Shown here: positions 55,409 to 62,977 of the stretch, in pieces
How positions within the stretch are numbered: the stretch's first letter is position 1
Layout of the letters: the number at the start of each line of letters is the position of its first letter
DNA from: Geodermatophilus sp. YIM 151500
GTDB taxonomy: Bacteria > Actinomycetota > Actinomycetes > Mycobacteriales > Geodermatophilaceae
Assembly: GCF_025716945.1 (NCBI RefSeq)
Contig: NZ_JAOVZT010000008.1
Span: 1-64,000, forward strand
Direction: 5' to 3'
Length of the DNA stretch: 64,000 nt
Notes under the pieces: generated by a model
What the model was told of the DNA's origin: nothing
The model's database searches: none
The model's input: only the letters and a program-made list of their open reading frames with translations
Position numbers and translations under genes: made by a program

Positions 55409-55888
55409 ATGGCGATCACCGACGGCCGGCCCGACGGCTACACGACCCTGACCCCCTTCCTCGTCTGCGCGCCGGCCGCGGAGGCCATCCGGTTCTACGA
55501 GGAGGTCTTCGGCGCCACGACGGTCAGCCGGATGGACGGCCCCGACGGCACGGTGGTGCACGCGGAACTCGACTACGGCACCGGGCGGCTGCAGCTGGGT
55601 GACCCGAACGACGCGTACGGGCTGGCCGCTCCCACCGGGCACGCGGACGACCGGGTCAGCGGCTCGACCTGCATCTACGTGCCGGACGTCGACGCGGTGT
55701 TCGCCGCGGCCGTCGAACGCGGCGCCACGGTGCGGGAGAAGCCGAGCACCTTCGTCACCGGCGACCGCTTCGCGTCGATCTACGACCCGTTCGGGCACCG
55801 CTGGGCGGTGATGACCCGGGTCGAGGACGTCAGCCCGGAGGAGGCGGAACGGCGCCTGGCCGAGTGGGCGGAGTCGCGGGACGGGTGA
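55409..55888 (+). CDS. VOC (glyoxalase-like) protein
   Basis: Single VOC-domain protein of 159 residues (PhnB-like), with two beta-alpha-beta modules (TLTPFLVCAPAAEAIRFYEEVFGA and STCIYVPDVDAVFAAAVERGA) and the C-terminal YDPFGHRWAVMTRVEDVSPEE motif. Metal-binding role and substrate are unclear. ATG 55409; GTG 55403 is an alternative. Divergent from AraC, and its last 59 nt overlap the convergent larC. Confidence 0.88.
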   Translation: MAITDGRPDGYTTLTPFLVCAPAAEAIRFYEEVFGATTVSRMDGPDGTVVHAELDYGTGRLQLGDPNDAYGLAAPTGHADDRVSGSTCIYVPDVDAVFAAAVERGATVREKPSTFVTGDRFASIYDPFGHRWAVMTRVEDVSPEEAERRLAEWAESRDG

Positions 55889-57077
55889 CCTGGTCGTCGT
55901 CGCGGGCCACCGGGTAGGCCGACTCCGCGGCGGTCGTGGCGGCGCGCAGGGCCTCCTTGACCGGGACGCCGGCCTCCCGGGCCAATGCGGCGACGTCCTC
56001 GTACTCCACGCCCACGTTCAGCACGCGGCCTCCGGACGACGCCACCTTGACGCCGACCCGGCCGCCGAGCACCTCCACCGACGCCGTCGTGCGCTCCAGC
56101 GCCACCTTGCCCACCGGCAGCGTGCGCAGCCCGATCGTCGAGGTGTGCGCGAAGACCGTGGCGCGCACGCGCTCGACCGCCGCCGGGGAGCAGAGCACCG
56201 ACAGGGTGTGCGCCGGGCGGCCCTTCTTCATCAGGATCGGCGTCAGCCAGGCGTCCGAGGCGCCGGCCGCGAGCAGGGCGTCCAGCACGCCGGGCCACAG
56301 CCGCGGGTCGAGGTCGTCGACGTTGGCCTCCAGCACCACCGCCCCTGCCGCGCCGTCCCCGCCGGTCGGCTCGCCGAGCACCAGGCGCACGACGTTGGGC
56401 AGCTCGGCGGGGTCGCGGCCGCCGATGCCGACGCCCACCCGCTGCACCCGCATCCCCGGCAGGTCGGACCAGTCCGTCACGCTGGCGGCCAGCAGCGCCG
56501 CGCCGGTCGGGGTGCACATCTCGGCGGCGACCGGCCCGGCCAGCACCGGCACCCCGGTCAGCAGCTCGAGCACCGCAGGGCCGGGGATCGGCACCACGCC
56601 GTGCGCGCCGCGCGCCGACCCGCTGCCCAGCGCGATCGGCGAGGCGACCAGCCGGTCCAGCGCCAGGTGCGCCAGCCCCGCGACGACGCCCACCACGTCG
56701 GCCAGCGCGTCCAGCGCCCCCACCTCGTGGAAGTGCACGTCCTCGGCGGGCACCCGGTGCACCCGCCCCTCGGCGCGAGCCAACCGCGCGAAGACGTCCA
56801 GCGCGCCGTCCCGCACTGCGGCGTCCAGAGGCGCTCCGGTCAGCAGGGCCCGGACGTCGGCCCAGGTGCGCCGGACGTCGGACGCCGGCGCGTGCACCAC
56901 CACCCGCGTGCCGCCGAGGCCGTGCCGCGCGGCCGGCTCGGCCGACAGCGTGACCGGTTCGACGGGCAGCGCCGAGATGGCCGCCTGCAGCACGTCGAGC
57001 GGCACGCCGGCGTCCACGAGCGCGCCGAGCAGCATGTCCCCCGACGCGCCCGCGGACAGGTCCAGCCACGCGATCAC
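55830..57077 (-). CDS. larC: Nickel-pincer cofactor biosynthesis protein LarC
   Basis: Protein of 415 residues, a CTP-dependent nickel insertase that puts Ni into the pyridinium bis-thiocarboxylate mononucleotide cofactor. The N-terminal region has WLDLSAGASGDMLLGAL, DVHFHEVGALDALADVVG and the GSGSARGAHGVVPIPGPAVLELL block. The second half has EANVDDLDPRLWPGVLDALLAAGASDAWLTPILMKKGRPAH, all typical of LarC. GTG 57077 is the start. The LarB-like domain lies 229 bp upstream in the fusion gene; no larE or larA is present in the window. Its 3' end overlaps the VOC gene by 59 nt. Confidence 0.93.
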   Translation of the reverse strand: MIAWLDLSAGASGDMLLGALVDAGVPLDVLQAAISALPVEPVTLSAEPAARHGLGGTRVVVHAPASDVRRTWADVRALLTGAPLDAAVRDGALDVFARLARAEGRVHRVPAEDVHFHEVGALDALADVVGVVAGLAHLALDRLVASPIALGSGSARGAHGVVPIPGPAVLELLTGVPVLAGPVAAEMCTPTGAALLAASVTDWSDLPGMRVQRVGVGIGGRDPAELPNVVRLVLGEPTGGDGAAGAVVLEANVDDLDPRLWPGVLDALLAAGASDAWLTPILMKKGRPAHTLSVLCSPAAVERVRATVFAHTSTIGLRTLPVGKVALERTTASVEVLGGRVGVKVASSGGRVLNVGVEYEDVAALAREAGVPVKEALRAATTAAESAYPVARDDDQVTRPATPPTRPGAVPPPPG

Positions 57078-57097
57078 ATGGTCGTCCTACCGGACGA

Positions 57098-57293
57098 CAC
57101 CGCGATCAGGAGCCACCCCCCGCGCGCGGAGCCGCTCCCGTCACTCCTCGGGGGAGCCTGCGGCCCCCCGCTCGTCGCGACACCGCGATCAGGGGCCCCC
57201 GTCGCGCGGAGCCGTTCCCGTCACTCCTCGGGGGAGCCTCCGGCTCCCGCACGTCGCGACACCGCGATCAGGAGCCACCCCCCGCGCGAGCCC
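57098..57293. repeat. ~80-bp tandem repeat, about 2.4 units, dispersed family
   Basis: Units at 57098-57180 (83 bp), 57181-57259 (79 bp) and a partial at 57260-57293 each begin caccgcgatcagg. The first two also carry gcggagccg, then cactcctcgggggagcct, then cgtcgcga. Inside, cgggggagcctccgg(c)ccccg can fold. A diverged single copy lies at 14751-14806. It fills the spacer between larC and the fusion gene; no gene is supported there. Confidence 0.88.
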
Positions 57294-57306: not shown

Positions 57307-60138
57307 TCACCGGCGGGCGACCCGAGCGGCGAAGACGCCGGCCGACCAGCCGTCGTCCACCGCGGTCACCGCGACACCCGGCGCGGGCGACCCGAGCACG
57401 GCGAGCACCGCGCCCAGCCCGCCGAGCGCGCCCGGCGTGCCGGTCGAGGTCGGTACCGCCAGCACCGGCACGTCGGTGACCGTGCCGAGGAGGCCGGCCA
57501 GCGCGGCGTCCGCGCCGGTGACGACGACCAGGCAGTCGACCTCGGGCAGCAGCGTGCGGTCGGCCAGCAGCGCCGGCAGCCGGCCGCTCCCGGCGTCGAC
57601 GCGGACCACCTCGGTGCCGGCGACCCGGGCGACGAACGCGGTCTCCGCCGCGACCGGCGCGTCACCGGCCGTGCTGAGGACGGCGATCCGCCCGACCGGC
57701 TCGGGCACCGGCCCGACCGCGGCGGCCATCGCGGCGGCGTCCATCGTCGTGTACGCGTCGTGCTCGCCGGCGACCGCGACCAGCGTCTCGGGCGCGGCCC
57801 GCAGCACGACGGTCGGCCGGTGGGGGTGGTCCCGCCGGGCCTCGCGCACCAGCGCGAGCACCTGCTCGGTGCTGCGGCCGGTCCCCCAGACCACCTCGGG
57901 CTCGACCCGCGCCGGGCGCGACCGGTCCGCCGGGGCGGGGCGGTCGTCCCGGGCCGTCGCCCACGGCGGCAGCGGGCCGAGCAGCGGCTCACCCGGCCGG
58001 TCCGTGCCCAGCGGCGGGTCCACCGGCTCGACCAGCAGGGCGCCGAAGCCCCGGGCGTCGTCCGGGGGCAAGACCGTCCCGCGGAGCTCCTGCGGTGGCA
58101 CCTGCCCCGGCGCTGCAGGACCGGCCGCCCCCGTGCCGGCCGCCCCCGTGCCGGCCGCCCCCGTGCCGGCCGTTCCCGCACCTGACCTCCCGGTCTCGGC
58201 CGCTCCCGTGCCGGCCGTTCCCGGGTTGGTCGTCCCCGCGCCGGAGCCCGCGTCCGCGCCCGTCCGCGTCTGGGTCACCCCGGACAGCCGGACGACGCGG
58301 TCCCGCCCGCTGCGCTTGGCGTCGTACAGCACCCCGTCGGCGGCGGCGAACAGCGTGCGCCGGTCGTCGCCGCGGGCCGCCGACGCGATGCCGACGCTGA
58401 TCGTCACCGGCTCCGGCAACCCGAGGGCCGCCCAGTCGTGCGCGGCCAGCGCCCGGCGGCAGCGCTCCAGGGCCCGCTCGGCCTGCTCGGCGGTCGTGTC
58501 CGGGAGCAGGATGACGAACTCGTCGCCGGCCCAGCGGCACACCTCGTCGGTGTCGCGGCAGCCGGCCACGAGCACCTCGGCGACCCGGCGCAGCACCTCG
58601 TCGCCGCCGGGGTGGCCGATCGCGTCGTTGACCTCCTTGAACCGGTCGACGTCGACCACGGCCAGCGCCGGGGCGGCGCCGGTGGTCAGCAGCCCGTCGA
58701 GCCGTGCCTCGGCGTAGCGGCGGTTGGGCAGGTGGGTCAGCGGGTCCTCGTAGGCCTGCCGGCGCAGCTGCCCGGCGGCCCGCTCGGTCTCCAGCAGGTT
58801 CTTGCGGCGGTCGAACAGCTCCACCCAGCGGGTCCGCCGCTCGTCGACCCGGTCGAGTTCGTCGGCGAGGTAGGCCTGCAGGTAGGGCAGCGCGCGGCCG
58901 GCGTCGTCCAACTCGGCGTGCAGCGTGCACAGCTCGCGCAGCGCCGACCGGCGCAGCCGCGGCAGCCCGTGCTCGGTGGCCAGGTCGAGCGCCGCGGCCA
59001 GGTGCTCGTCGGCAGCGCCGGGGTCGCCCTGGCGGCGCAGCGCCCGGCCGAGCGCGAGGCGGGCGGAGGCGAGCAGGGCGCGGTCGTCGGCGGCGGTCGT
59101 CGCCCGCACGGCCTCGCGCAGCAGCCGTGCCGCGACGCGGTGCTCCTCCAGGCCGACCAGCGCCCAGCCGTGCACGACCAGGGCGGCGGCCCGCAGCGGC
59201 TCGTCGGCGCCGAGCAGCCCCAGCGCCCGCTCGGCCAGCGCGCGGGCCTCGGTGAAGTGCGACCGGGCCGCCTCCGGCGTCCCGTCGTCGAGCAGGCCCT
59301 CGCCCAGCTCCGCGCACAGCTCGCCGAGGCGGACCGCGGCGGTCGCGACCACCTGCCGCGGGTCGCCGTCCTCCGGCGCCCGCGGCCGTTCGGCCGCCGC
59401 CGTGGCGGCCAGCAGGGCCCGCCGCTGGTAGTCGAGGGCCAGCGGCATCAACTCGAGGTCGGCCAGGACGGCGGCCAGCGTGCCCAGCGTGTCGACGAGC
59501 AGCGGGCCGGGCTCCAGGCCCGGGTCGAGCAGGCTCGCCGCCTCGACGGCCTCGTCCATGGCCGCGTCGATGCGGCGGGAGAGCAGCTCGATCCGCGCGT
59601 GCCGGGCCAGCCCGGCGGCGCGCTGCAGGTCGTCGTCGGCGGCGTCGAAGGCGGCCTTCGCCGAGCGGACCAGCGCGATCGCCAGCGCCGCGCGGGAGGC
59701 CTGCTCGCCGCGGCCGTCGCCGTCGGTCCCGGTCCGCCCCGGGGTCCCCGGCGTCGGGGCCGCGGCGCCCGTGCTGCGGTCGATGAGGTCGGTGACCCCG
59801 GCGTGCAGGTCCAGGCCCGGCTCGTCGGCCTCGTCGACCGGATCGCCGACCAGGGTGAAACCGGCCAGCCGCAACCGCCGGACGAGCAGCTCGGCGCGGA
59901 GGGTGTCGGCCCACGCCCGGCCCAGCGTGCGCTGCGGGTCCCCGGCCGCCGGATCGGCGTCGGCGGTGTCGCTCCCGGGGTCCGGGACGACGTAGGGCGG
60001 CGGGAACCGCTCGACGTCGGCGAGCAGCTCCTCGGCGTCGTCCAGCCGCCAGTTCGCCAGCGCAGCGGTCACCCGCTGGTGCAGGGCTCCCGGTGGCACC
60101 AGCGCACTGTGCACGGCGTCCGATCGGGTGTCGAGCAC
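57307..60138 (-). CDS. TPR-GGDEF diguanylate cyclase fused to a LarB-like domain
   Basis: A single uninterrupted frame of 943 residues. The N-terminal 430 residues are helical repeats (TPR-like). The GGDEF domain covers about 455-615, with DVDRFKEVND, the active motif RWAGDEF at 535-541 (AGDEF variant) and an inhibitory RxxD site at R528-D531. A low-complexity linker (about 620-685, five-residue GTGAA repeats) leads to a LarB-like C terminus (about 740-943; EVVWGTGRSTEQVLALV, RIAVLSTAGDAPVAAETAFVARVAGTEV, DCLVVVTGADAALAGLLG, VPTSTGTPGALGG). In LarB the nucleophile cysteine follows in SCxPG; here the motif is GSPAPG with Pro at 918. GTG 60138 is the likeliest start. Confidence 0.82.
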   Translation of the reverse strand: MLDTRSDAVHSALVPPGALHQRVTAALANWRLDDAEELLADVERFPPPYVVPDPGSDTADADPAAGDPQRTLGRAWADTLRAELLVRRLRLAGFTLVGDPVDEADEPGLDLHAGVTDLIDRSTGAAAPTPGTPGRTGTDGDGRGEQASRAALAIALVRSAKAAFDAADDDLQRAAGLARHARIELLSRRIDAAMDEAVEAASLLDPGLEPGPLLVDTLGTLAAVLADLELMPLALDYQRRALLAATAAAERPRAPEDGDPRQVVATAAVRLGELCAELGEGLLDDGTPEAARSHFTEARALAERALGLLGADEPLRAAALVVHGWALVGLEEHRVAARLLREAVRATTAADDRALLASARLALGRALRRQGDPGAADEHLAAALDLATEHGLPRLRRSALRELCTLHAELDDAGRALPYLQAYLADELDRVDERRTRWVELFDRRKNLLETERAAGQLRRQAYEDPLTHLPNRRYAEARLDGLLTTGAAPALAVVDVDRFKEVNDAIGHPGGDEVLRRVAEVLVAGCRDTDEVCRWAGDEFVILLPDTTAEQAERALERCRRALAAHDWAALGLPEPVTISVGIASAARGDDRRTLFAAADGVLYDAKRSGRDRVVRLSGVTQTRTGADAGSGAGTTNPGTAGTGAAETGRSGAGTAGTGAAGTGAAGTGAAGPAAPGQVPPQELRGTVLPPDDARGFGALLVEPVDPPLGTDRPGEPLLGPLPPWATARDDRPAPADRSRPARVEPEVVWGTGRSTEQVLALVREARRDHPHRPTVVLRAAPETLVAVAGEHDAYTTMDAAAMAAAVGPVPEPVGRIAVLSTAGDAPVAAETAFVARVAGTEVVRVDAGSGRLPALLADRTLLPEVDCLVVVTGADAALAGLLGTVTDVPVLAVPTSTGTPGALGGLGAVLAVLGSPAPGVAVTAVDDGWSAGVFAARVARR
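58121..58180. repeat. 15-bp in-frame tandem repeat in the GGDEF-LarB linker
   Basis: The plus-strand unit ccggccgcccccgtg occurs at 58121-58135, 58136-58150 and 58151-58165, with a diverged fourth at 58166-58180. On the coding strand it encodes GTGAA repeats, so changes in copy number keep the reading frame and only alter linker length. Confidence 0.85.
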
Positions 60139-60200
60139 ATGACCGGAGCCACGCCGCACGACGTCCGTCCCGCCCCACCTGCCCCAGCCGCGGCGGGGGC

Positions 60201-61922
60201 TCACGCGGGCGTCCCGCCGGCCGACCGGTCGTCGTCGGGGGCGGCGCCCGGCGCGCGGACGCGGTTGCGGCCGCTGCGCTTGGCGGAGAAGAGGTGCAGG
60301 TCGGCGGCGTCGAACAGCGCCCGCCAGCTCGCCACCGGCGGCGCCCCACCGGCGACGGCCGGAGCGGTCGCCACCCCGATGCTGACGGTCACCGGCTCGG
60401 GCAGCCGCAGGTCGCTCCAGTCGGCGCCGGCGACGGCGGTGCGCAGCCGCTCCATGACCCCGACGGCCTGGGGTTCGGTCGCCGTCGGCAGGACGACGAG
60501 GAACTCGTCCCCGGCCCAGCGGAACACCTCGTCGCCGGCGCGGCTGTGCTCGAGCAGCAGATCGGCGACCCGGCGCAGCACGACGTCGCCCGAGGTGTGC
60601 GAGCCGCCGTCGTTGACCTCCTTGAAGCGGTCGACGTCGACGACGGCCAGCGACAGCGGCTCCTCGCCCAGCCGCAGCGAGGTCAGGCGGCGCTCGGCGC
60701 TGCGCCGGTTGCCCAGGCCGGTGAGCGGGTCCTCGAGGGCGTGCTGGCGCAGCAGTGCGGTCTGCCGCTCGGCCTCGCGCAGCCGGCTGCGGCGCACGAA
60801 CATCTCGGCCCACAGCTGGCGGCTGTGCGCGTGCGCGCGCCGGGTGTCGGCGCGATAGGCCTCCAGCCAGTGCAGCGCCTCCGCGGGACGGCCCTGCGCG
60901 GCCGTCACCTGGCCGAGCTCGAGCAGGCACTGGCGGTGGCGGCGGCGATCACCGGCGACCACGAAGGCGGACGCGGCGTCGACCATCAGCTGCACCGCCT
61001 CCTCGCCGGTGGCCGGTTCGTCGTCGCGGGCGGCCAGCCGGACCAGCAGCCGGGCGAGCACCAGGTCGGTGAGGCCGCGCAGCCAGAGGGTGCCCTCCTC
61101 GTGCACCCGGCGACGCGACCGGCGCAGCGGGCCGAGCGCGTCGTCGAGCTCGTCGCGGCAGGTGAGCGCCCACGCCTGGACGACGTCGAGCAGGTCGGCG
61201 GGCCCCGGTTCGGGCTCCCACGGCAGTGCGCGGGCGGCGGTGGCCTGGTCGACGGCGGCGCGGGCCAGCTCGCGGGCCCGCTCGTGCTCGCCGCGGCGGT
61301 GCAGCGTCTGGGCCAGCTCGGCGTGCTGCTGGGCGGAGAGCAGCAGCATCCGCCAGCGGTCTCCGGGGTCGGGCAGGGCCAGGGCGACACCGTGCCCGCG
61401 GTCGGCGTGCACGACCGCCAGCTCCTCGAGGTCGAGCGCGGCGAGGGTGAATGACAGCCAGCGGTGCGCCTGCAGCAGCGCGCGGGAGGCCTGAGCCGGG
61501 GTGAAGCTCTCGGTGAGCAGGCTCGAGTCGACGGCCAGCAGCATCGCCGCGTCGGCGTGGTCGGCGGTGACCTCGACGTGCGCCAGCCAGGCCAGCACCA
61601 GCGCGTTGTCCGCGGTCGGCGAACAGCCGTCGAGGGCCTCCCGGGCGGCGGTCACCTCCGCCGATGCGGCCTGGGCGTCGGCCTCGACCAGCAGCCGCCG
61701 CGCGGCCAGGGCGTGCCGCCAGGCGGTGCGCCCGGCGGCGGCGTCGGCGTCCCGCCCGGTGCCGGCCGGCTCCGGCTGCGCGGTACCGGCGTCGAGCTCC
61801 TCCTGCGCCGCGTCGAGCAGCGCGAGGTACGCCGGGACGTCCTCGCTGTCGCCCGCGGCGAGCAGACGCCACAGCGCAGCCTCCGGGTCACCCTCGGTGA
61901 CTCGAGCCGGGCGGGCGATCAC
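60201..61922 (-). CDS. TPR-GGDEF diguanylate cyclase, paralogue of its downstream neighbour
   Basis: Soluble protein of 573 residues. Helical TPR-like repeats run to about 390 (RHALAARRLLVEADAQ, RARELARAAVDQATAARALP, ALHWLEAYRAD), then a short coiled linker, then a GGDEF domain at about 395-560. The motif is RWAGDEF (A470-F474), preceded by a canonical RxxD I-site at R461-D464, with AVVDVDRFKEVND for metal and substrate binding. It should make cyclic-di-GMP with product inhibition. GTG 61922 is supported by GGAGG 5 nt upstream. The next gene (the LarB fusion) starts 62 nt after its stop. Confidence 0.9.
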   Translation of the reverse strand: MIARPARVTEGDPEAALWRLLAAGDSEDVPAYLALLDAAQEELDAGTAQPEPAGTGRDADAAAGRTAWRHALAARRLLVEADAQAASAEVTAAREALDGCSPTADNALVLAWLAHVEVTADHADAAMLLAVDSSLLTESFTPAQASRALLQAHRWLSFTLAALDLEELAVVHADRGHGVALALPDPGDRWRMLLLSAQQHAELAQTLHRRGEHERARELARAAVDQATAARALPWEPEPGPADLLDVVQAWALTCRDELDDALGPLRRSRRRVHEEGTLWLRGLTDLVLARLLVRLAARDDEPATGEEAVQLMVDAASAFVVAGDRRRHRQCLLELGQVTAAQGRPAEALHWLEAYRADTRRAHAHSRQLWAEMFVRRSRLREAERQTALLRQHALEDPLTGLGNRRSAERRLTSLRLGEEPLSLAVVDVDRFKEVNDGGSHTSGDVVLRRVADLLLEHSRAGDEVFRWAGDEFLVVLPTATEPQAVGVMERLRTAVAGADWSDLRLPEPVTVSIGVATAPAVAGGAPPVASWRALFDAADLHLFSAKRSGRNRVRAPGAAPDDDRSAGGTPA

Positions 61923-62041
61923 GCGTTCCTCCAGACGACGGTGGGCCGGCCGTGCGGCCGGAACTGCCGACAGCGAGGCAGCCTCCCCCGGGTGAGGACC
62001 CCGCCCCGACCCGCCCGCACTACCCTCGCCGGGTGCGCGGA

Positions 62042-62977
62042 ATGCCGACCAGCACGCCACCGACGCGGTTCGCCTATCTCGGGCCCGAGGGTACCTTCGC
62101 CGAAGCGGCCCTCCGCAGCGTCGCTGCCTCCTCGGAGGGAGCGCGGTACCCCCAGCCGAGTGTGGCCGCGGCGCTGTCCGCCGTCCGGTCGGGTGACGCC
62201 GACGCCGCCCTCGTGCCGCTGGAGAACTCGATCGAGGGCTCGGTACCGGCGACCATGGACGGCCTGGCCGACGGTGACCCGCTGGTCATCACCCGCGAGG
62301 TCTTCCTCACCGTCGAGCTGACGCTGGCCGCGCGGCCGGGGATGGCGCTCGACGACGTCCGCACCGTGGTCTCGCACCCGCACGCGCTGGCGCAGGCCGC
62401 CGGGTGGCTGGCCGGGCACGGCCTGGCGACCCTGCCGACCGGCTCCACCGCGGCCGCCGCGCGCGCGGTGGCCGACGGCGAGCACGACGCCGCCGTCTGC
62501 GCGCCCATCGCCGCGGAGCGCTACGGCCTGATCCGCCTGGTCGACGACGTCGCCGACCACCGGGGAGCGGTCACCCGGTTCGTGCTGGTGACCCCGCCGG
62601 GCCCGCTCCGACCGCCCACCGGCAACGACAAGACCTCGCTGGTCGCGGTCGTCGGCGACCGGACGGGCGCGCTGCTGTCGCTGCTGTCGGAGTTCGCCGT
62701 CCGCGGCATCTCGCTGACCCGCATCGAGTCGCGACCGACCCGCGAGCGGCTCGGCGTCTACTCCTTCTCCCTCGACTGCGAGGGGCACGTGGCCGACCGG
62801 CGGGTGGGGGAGGCGCTGGCCGCGCTGCACCGGGTCTGCGACGACGTCCGTTTCCTCGGCTCCTACGCGCGCGCCGACGGACGGGAGAACAAGCCGGTTC
62901 CCCCGGACGCCGACGACGCGGCCTTCGCCGACGCCGAGGCCTGGCTGCGCCGGTTGCGCGAGGGCTCATCGGGCTGA
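62042..62977 (+). CDS. pheA: Prephenate dehydratase
   Basis: Enzyme of 311 residues converting prephenate to phenylpyruvate for phenylalanine synthesis. The PDT domain covers about 12-190 (YLGPEGTFAEAAL, ALVPLENSIEGSV, GAVTRFVLV with the catalytic Thr), and a C-terminal ACT domain at about 200-280 carries the ESRPTR motif for phenylalanine feedback binding. ATG 62042 was chosen; GTG 62033 is possible. There is no fused chorismate mutase. It is divergent from the GGDEF gene. Confidence 0.95.
   Translation: MPTSTPPTRFAYLGPEGTFAEAALRSVAASSEGARYPQPSVAAALSAVRSGDADAALVPLENSIEGSVPATMDGLADGDPLVITREVFLTVELTLAARPGMALDDVRTVVSHPHALAQAAGWLAGHGLATLPTGSTAAAARAVADGEHDAAVCAPIAAERYGLIRLVDDVADHRGAVTRFVLVTPPGPLRPPTGNDKTSLVAVVGDRTGALLSLLSEFAVRGISLTRIESRPTRERLGVYSFSLDCEGHVADRRVGEALAALHRVCDDVRFLGSYARADGRENKPVPPDADDAAFADAEAWLRRLREGSSG

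Follow-up and report, generated by a model that had tools for sequence, protein, structure and literature searches.

A putative LarB pseudoenzyme domain at the C terminus of a diguanylate cyclase in Geodermatophilaceae

Geodermatophilaceae is a family of soil and rock bacteria. The window, that is, the whole 64,000-nucleotide stretch of contig NZ_JAOVZT010000008.1 of Geodermatophilus sp. YIM 151500 that was analysed, carries on its minus strand a gene in which a TPR region, a GGDEF domain and a LarB-like domain are joined, and this fusion gene lies between larC and a second GGDEF gene:

55830..57077, minus strand, larC (nickel insertion, LarC1 and LarC2), directly downstream of the fusion gene
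57307..60138, minus strand, fusion gene (TPR region, GGDEF, disordered linker and LarB-like domain)
57310..57921, minus strand, LarB-like (PurE/AIRC fold) putative pseudoenzyme domain (NF033503, E 2.1e-32; AlphaFold model; match to 7mj2_D)
57385..57387, minus strand, Pro codon at the position of the catalytic Cys221
57916..58287, minus strand, disordered linker between the GGDEF and LarB-like domains (pLDDT near 35 for most of its length)
58297..58755, minus strand, GGDEF diguanylate cyclase domain (PF00990, E 1.8e-37)
58516..58530, minus strand, AGDEF active-site motif
58546..58557, minus strand, RDTD, an RxxD I-site (product inhibition) five residues before AGDEF
58873..59268, minus strand, TPR (MalT-like) region of the N-terminal half (PF17874, E 7.7e-8, below the curated cut-off)
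60201..62060, minus strand, second GGDEF gene without a LarB domain, directly upstream of the fusion gene

The minus-strand open frame (57307-60930, 1207 aa) runs past the likely start of the gene. Although the frame reaches 60930, the upstream gene ends at 60201, and so we infer a start further in, most likely at a GTG near 60138, with 60204-60072 as the possible range. The C-terminal reading of the frame is ...VPTSTGTPGALGGLGAVLAVLGSPAPGVAVTAVDDGWSAGVFAARVARR*. A tandem pair of GGDEF genes is also present in relatives. Two repeats were observed at the locus. A 15-bp tandem repeat of 6.5 copies (58121-58217) lies inside the coding linker and encodes a stretch of the Gly-Thr-Gly-Ala-Ala type, and an 80-bp unit occurs in 2.5 copies in the space that separates larC from the fusion gene (57095-57292). 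Another 28 matches to the 80-bp unit, with 71-84% identity, are scattered over the genome, which suggests a family of dispersed intergenic repeats.

Judged by its motifs, the cyclase looks intact: besides AGDEF and the RDTD I-site, the GGDEF domain has the segment VVDVDRFK with the metal-binding Asp. A cyclase of the AGDEF type can be active, as in VCA0965 of Vibrio cholerae (PMC3974145). The fusion protein shares AGDEF, the RxxD I-site and the Asp-rich first motif with VCA0965 and other GGDEF cyclases but, unlike them, has a TPR input and a C-terminal module of LarB type.

The NCBIfam LarB model (NF033503) matches residues 1002-1206 of the open frame with 112.5 bits, which is below the equivalog cut-off of 175 at which a sequence is called a LarB enzyme. 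Homology to LarB is nevertheless clear: a profile search matches LarB of the PDB with an E value of 5.9e-41. The fold agrees: the AlphaFold model of the domain (pLDDT 82.8, pTM 0.83) was matched best in Foldseek by LarB crystal structures (7mj2_D, E 1.2e-15), and VIA-align placed 196 of its residues on LarB 7mj2 with Z 25.3 and an rmsd of 2.4 A. LarB of L. plantarum (7mj0/7mj1/7mj2, 8soq/8stc/8std), a pyridinium-3,5-biscarboxylic acid mononucleotide synthase that carboxylates and hydrolyses NaAD to give P2CMN, resembles the fused domain over the whole fold, with about 32% identity and many shared glycine and core positions. It differs in that the 44 N-terminal residues of LarB are replaced in the fused protein by the linker, to which the GGDEF domain is attached. 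PurE (AIR carboxylase, PF00731) has a more distant likeness, confined to the C-terminal half of the domain (Z about 16); the fused domain is clearly nearer to LarB, and a separate strong PF00731 match, likely purE, lies on contig C22. The LarB crystal entries contain six chains each, which by analogy would be consistent with an assembling, oligomeric fold. A model of the GGDEF and LarB-like domains together gave two folded parts, and the linker between them was modelled at very low confidence; with a pTM of 0.44 and a disordered linker, the model allows no claim about packing of one domain on the other.

LarB catalysis is reported to pass through a cysteinyl-pyridine intermediate, and Cys221 is presumably the residue that forms it, in agreement with its invariance in free-standing LarB. 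Here residues are numbered as in L. plantarum LarB (PDB sequence; Cys 221, Ser 127), and pocket residues other than these two are named from conservation only. The sequence-only reading had proposed that the domain lacks this cysteine and reads PTSTGTPG, GSPAPG and VDDGWSAG at the active-site loops. The frame gives exactly VPTSTGTPG...VLGSPAPG...VDDGWSAG, with the Pro that replaces Cys221 at residue 1182, 25 residues from the end, and the loss extends well beyond the window. In the window domain Tyr204 is Thr, Gly205 is Pro, Asn232 is Asp, Gly156 is Arg and Phe234-Gly235 is Trp-Ser; Ser127, the residue mutated (S127A) in structures 8soq/8stc/8std, is deleted; and there is a further deletion next to the DVG loop. 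The PTSVGYG, DVGVAGIHR and IDNGFGA loops have all been rewritten.

Aligned with L. plantarum LarB and free-standing LarBs of the family and order, none of 44 fused domains (the window copy included) has Cys221, which is present in 49/49 free-standing LarBs. The cysteine is likewise missing from all 79 alignable fused homologues among 80 loci from named Geodermatophilaceae, a set that overlaps in part with the 44. Ser127 is found in 47 of the 49 free LarBs and in no fused domain, where the position holds Ala, Gly or Pro apart from the deletion in the window. Lys57, Gly156, His158, Arg159, Gly181, Tyr204, Gly205, Phe234 and Gly235 are also altered, and several of these positions have gone the same way in all or most copies (Ala for Gly181 in 44/44, Arg for Lys57 in 43/44, Arg for Gly156 in 39/44); Asp128, Glu134, Thr200, Ser201, Asp231 and Gly233 are retained. 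No other cysteine takes the site. One at column 172 occurs in 43/44 fused domains but also in 14/49 free LarBs that have Cys221, and one at column 123 occurs in 34/44 fused domains but is Ser in the window copy. Neither a pseudogene nor a sequencing error explains the loss in the window, since all homologues share it. Given the clade-wide changes at Cys221, Ser127 and many columns that are invariant in free LarB, together with an intact larB elsewhere in the genome, the alignments strongly support the earlier suggestion that the carboxylase/hydrolase chemistry of LarB has been lost from the fused domain.

Three matches to the AIRC fold were found in the genome (4.77 Mb, 53 contigs), namely the likely purE, the window domain and an intact LarB on contig C16. 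The last, the second copy that had been proposed as something to look for, is free-standing, adjoins larE, has the motifs TACAPG, PTSVGYG and NIDNGFGAG, and scores 246.7 bits against NF033503, above the cut-off. It belongs to the same family as the fused domain but, in contrast to it, stands alone, has intact TACAPG and PTSVGYG motifs and falls in a separate clade (support 100/99). The larC of the window is the only one in the genome, and larA (PF09861) was not found in the genome. The set of larB, larE and larC without larA recurs in many Geodermatophilaceae genomes. About 15% of genomes are known to have genes for NPN synthesis but no larA (PMC11796402).

A search for LarB in 112 Geodermatophilaceae genomes of 12 genera found two kinds of match: intact LarBs and, in most genomes, a LarB of lower score that closes a frame of about 1000 aa. 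With a profile of the fused clade, the fused type of domain was found in about 101 of the 103 genomes of the nine core genera, the exceptions being G081 and the incomplete MAG G098; in G108 the domain was identified by gene order and alignment. The named relatives are Blastococcus, Modestobacter, Geodermatophilus, Klenkia, Goekera and Trujillonella, all of them Geodermatophilaceae. Wherever the full gene is readable the domain lies behind TPR and GGDEF. The presence of a GGDEF in the same frame was checked for the loci retrieved, and among the 80 named ones it holds for 71; of the remaining nine, six are truncated where their contig stops, and three failed to match a strict motif. In G092 (L040) and G047 (L234) the GGDEF and LarB parts lie in different overlapping frames with an apparent frameshift in the linker, which may be a sequencing error. 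As dozens of independent genomes carry the fusion, an artefact of assembly or frame is ruled out. In three further genera (g6, g7 and g8, mostly incomplete MAGs) the only LarBs were in frames that are short or score lower, and those that were legible stand alone.

No fusion was seen outside Geodermatophilaceae in a sample of the order (397 genomes, members of the family included) or in a sample of the phylum (396 genomes). A scan of 84,980 species kept 80 loci, all from Geodermatophilaceae, judged by title, save a few unclassified or mislabelled records; it used patterns of the fused clade, and so distant fusions could escape it. On these sequence comparisons, core Geodermatophilaceae have a diguanylate cyclase whose fixed C-terminal module is a LarB pseudoenzyme domain.

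In a tree of 94 sequences a branch with support of 100/100 separates all 44 fused domains from the intact LarBs linked to larE; the tree was drawn from its midpoint and the fused clade has a long stem, so that the placement of its deep root is tentative. The tree topology shows a single origin of the fusion. A free larB stands directly before larC in sister families and in the basal genera g7 and g8, and in the core genera the fusion occupies that position. From gene order and scores, the natural reading is that the fusion arose from an ancestral larB-larC operon, the larB of which would have joined the upstream TPR-GGDEF gene. The intact larB, which in many genomes lies beside larE, would perform the chemistry where the pathway persists.

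The fused domain has outlived the pathway in part of the family. In 28 genomes that lack larC, larE over threshold and any intact larB, it is still carried and is the sole LarB. Its dN/dS was 0.05-0.2 in eight of nine pairs of genomes without the lar pathway, the outlier being L070/L072 at 0.56, and these sequence ratios show purifying selection without the pathway. In G002, G011, G013, G015 and G018 larC remains after loss of larB and larE, with clearly lower scores (312-362 bits, where most others have 397-446) that suggest decay. An extra LarB copy, L041 (G092 C1:1461588-1462049), adjoins a larE, covers only positions 1-156 of the model and is without the C-terminal catalytic part.

Conservation was compared in nine genomes that hold both the fused domain and an intact LarB. 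At the catalytic columns the entropy is 0.88 bits in the fused domain versus 0.0 in the intact LarB. At Lp 60-69, 90-99 and 100-109, however, the fused domain is the more conserved of the two (0.25, 0.30 and 0.30 versus 0.42, 0.76 and 0.89), even though the fused set is more diverged overall (mean identity 68% versus 82%). Conservation in these sequences has shifted from the catalytic pocket to the N-terminal face of the domain, with the reservation that the fused set comes from one family only, so that part of the conservation is shallow depth, and that the matched control spans nine genomes only. Because selection has moved off the pocket, we rank a structural or interaction role first and a ligand sensor second. 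That the LarB-like domain is a structural or regulatory module, acting by self-association or by partner binding, we hold with even confidence, the mechanism itself being what we infer. In the most likely variant, self-association of the LarB type would hold the cyclase subunits together through the flexible linker; alternatively, the conserved N-terminal face would bind a partner. The TPR part and the state of assembly would then set the cyclic-di-GMP output. Counted against a structural module are the retained pocket residues and the changes of Gly181 to Ala and Lys57 to Arg, which could mean a new ligand.

The ligand-sensing role that the sequence-only reading had suggested is not the best-supported reading. 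An altered pocket that binds a pyridine or adenine nucleotide (NaAD, NAD, NMN, AMP) or another metabolite without turnover, and so gates the cyclase, is rather less probable. The fold is kept, Asp128, Glu134, Thr200, Ser201 and Asp231 are conserved, and the changes at Gly181, Lys57 and Gly156 are unidirectional; on the other hand, the catalytic columns vary, the window copy has its deletions at Ser127 and beside the DVG loop, and the columns that never vary in free LarB show, within the fused clade, no significantly higher conservation than the remaining ones (p 0.30). A more specific form, a nucleotide sensor that ties the status of NAD-type nucleotides to cyclic-di-GMP output in Geodermatophilaceae, appears rather unlikely. 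The kept fold and acidic residues might also serve a different chemistry that dispenses with Cys221, such as dinucleotide hydrolysis, and we reason that hydrolysis of a phosphoanhydride need not use Cys; with Ser127, His158, Arg159, Tyr204, Phe234 and the loop glycines also changed, and mostly variable, this seems improbable. It is similarly hard to credit a role in NPN synthesis as an inactive helper, for instance by partnering LarC, LarE or intact LarB: larC does adjoin the fusion gene in many genomes, the window included, and many have an intact larB as well, but the 28 genomes without larB, larE and larC retain the domain under purifying selection. Least of all do we expect a functionless passenger, a read-through fusion in slow decay. 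Erosion has gone further in the copies of the window, G005, G020 and G108 than in the others, yet the near-universal retention in the core genera, in frame with GGDEF in nearly all readable genes, speaks against this reading, and the mostly low dN/dS contradicts it. Since the fusion was kept after loss of the lar genes with dN/dS mostly in that low range, the domain is better regarded as a selected pseudoenzyme than as a product of decay.

Among the papers of the library searched, none has LarB and GGDEF both as whole words and none names GGDEF together with Geodermatophilaceae; the LarB-GGDEF fusion and its evolution appear to be undescribed. The single origin, the loss of residues across the clade, the intact paralogue in many genomes and the persistence in 28 genomes without the pathway make it a clear case of an enzyme turned into a non-catalytic signalling module. 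Because the fused pseudoenzyme is the only LarB in those 28 genomes, a LarB-family match in Geodermatophilaceae need not imply NPN synthesis. If the domain does sense NAD-type nucleotides, it would be a new type of cyclic-di-GMP regulatory domain, derived from an enzyme of cofactor synthesis. In any case the fusion offers an entry point to cyclic-di-GMP signalling in Geodermatophilaceae.
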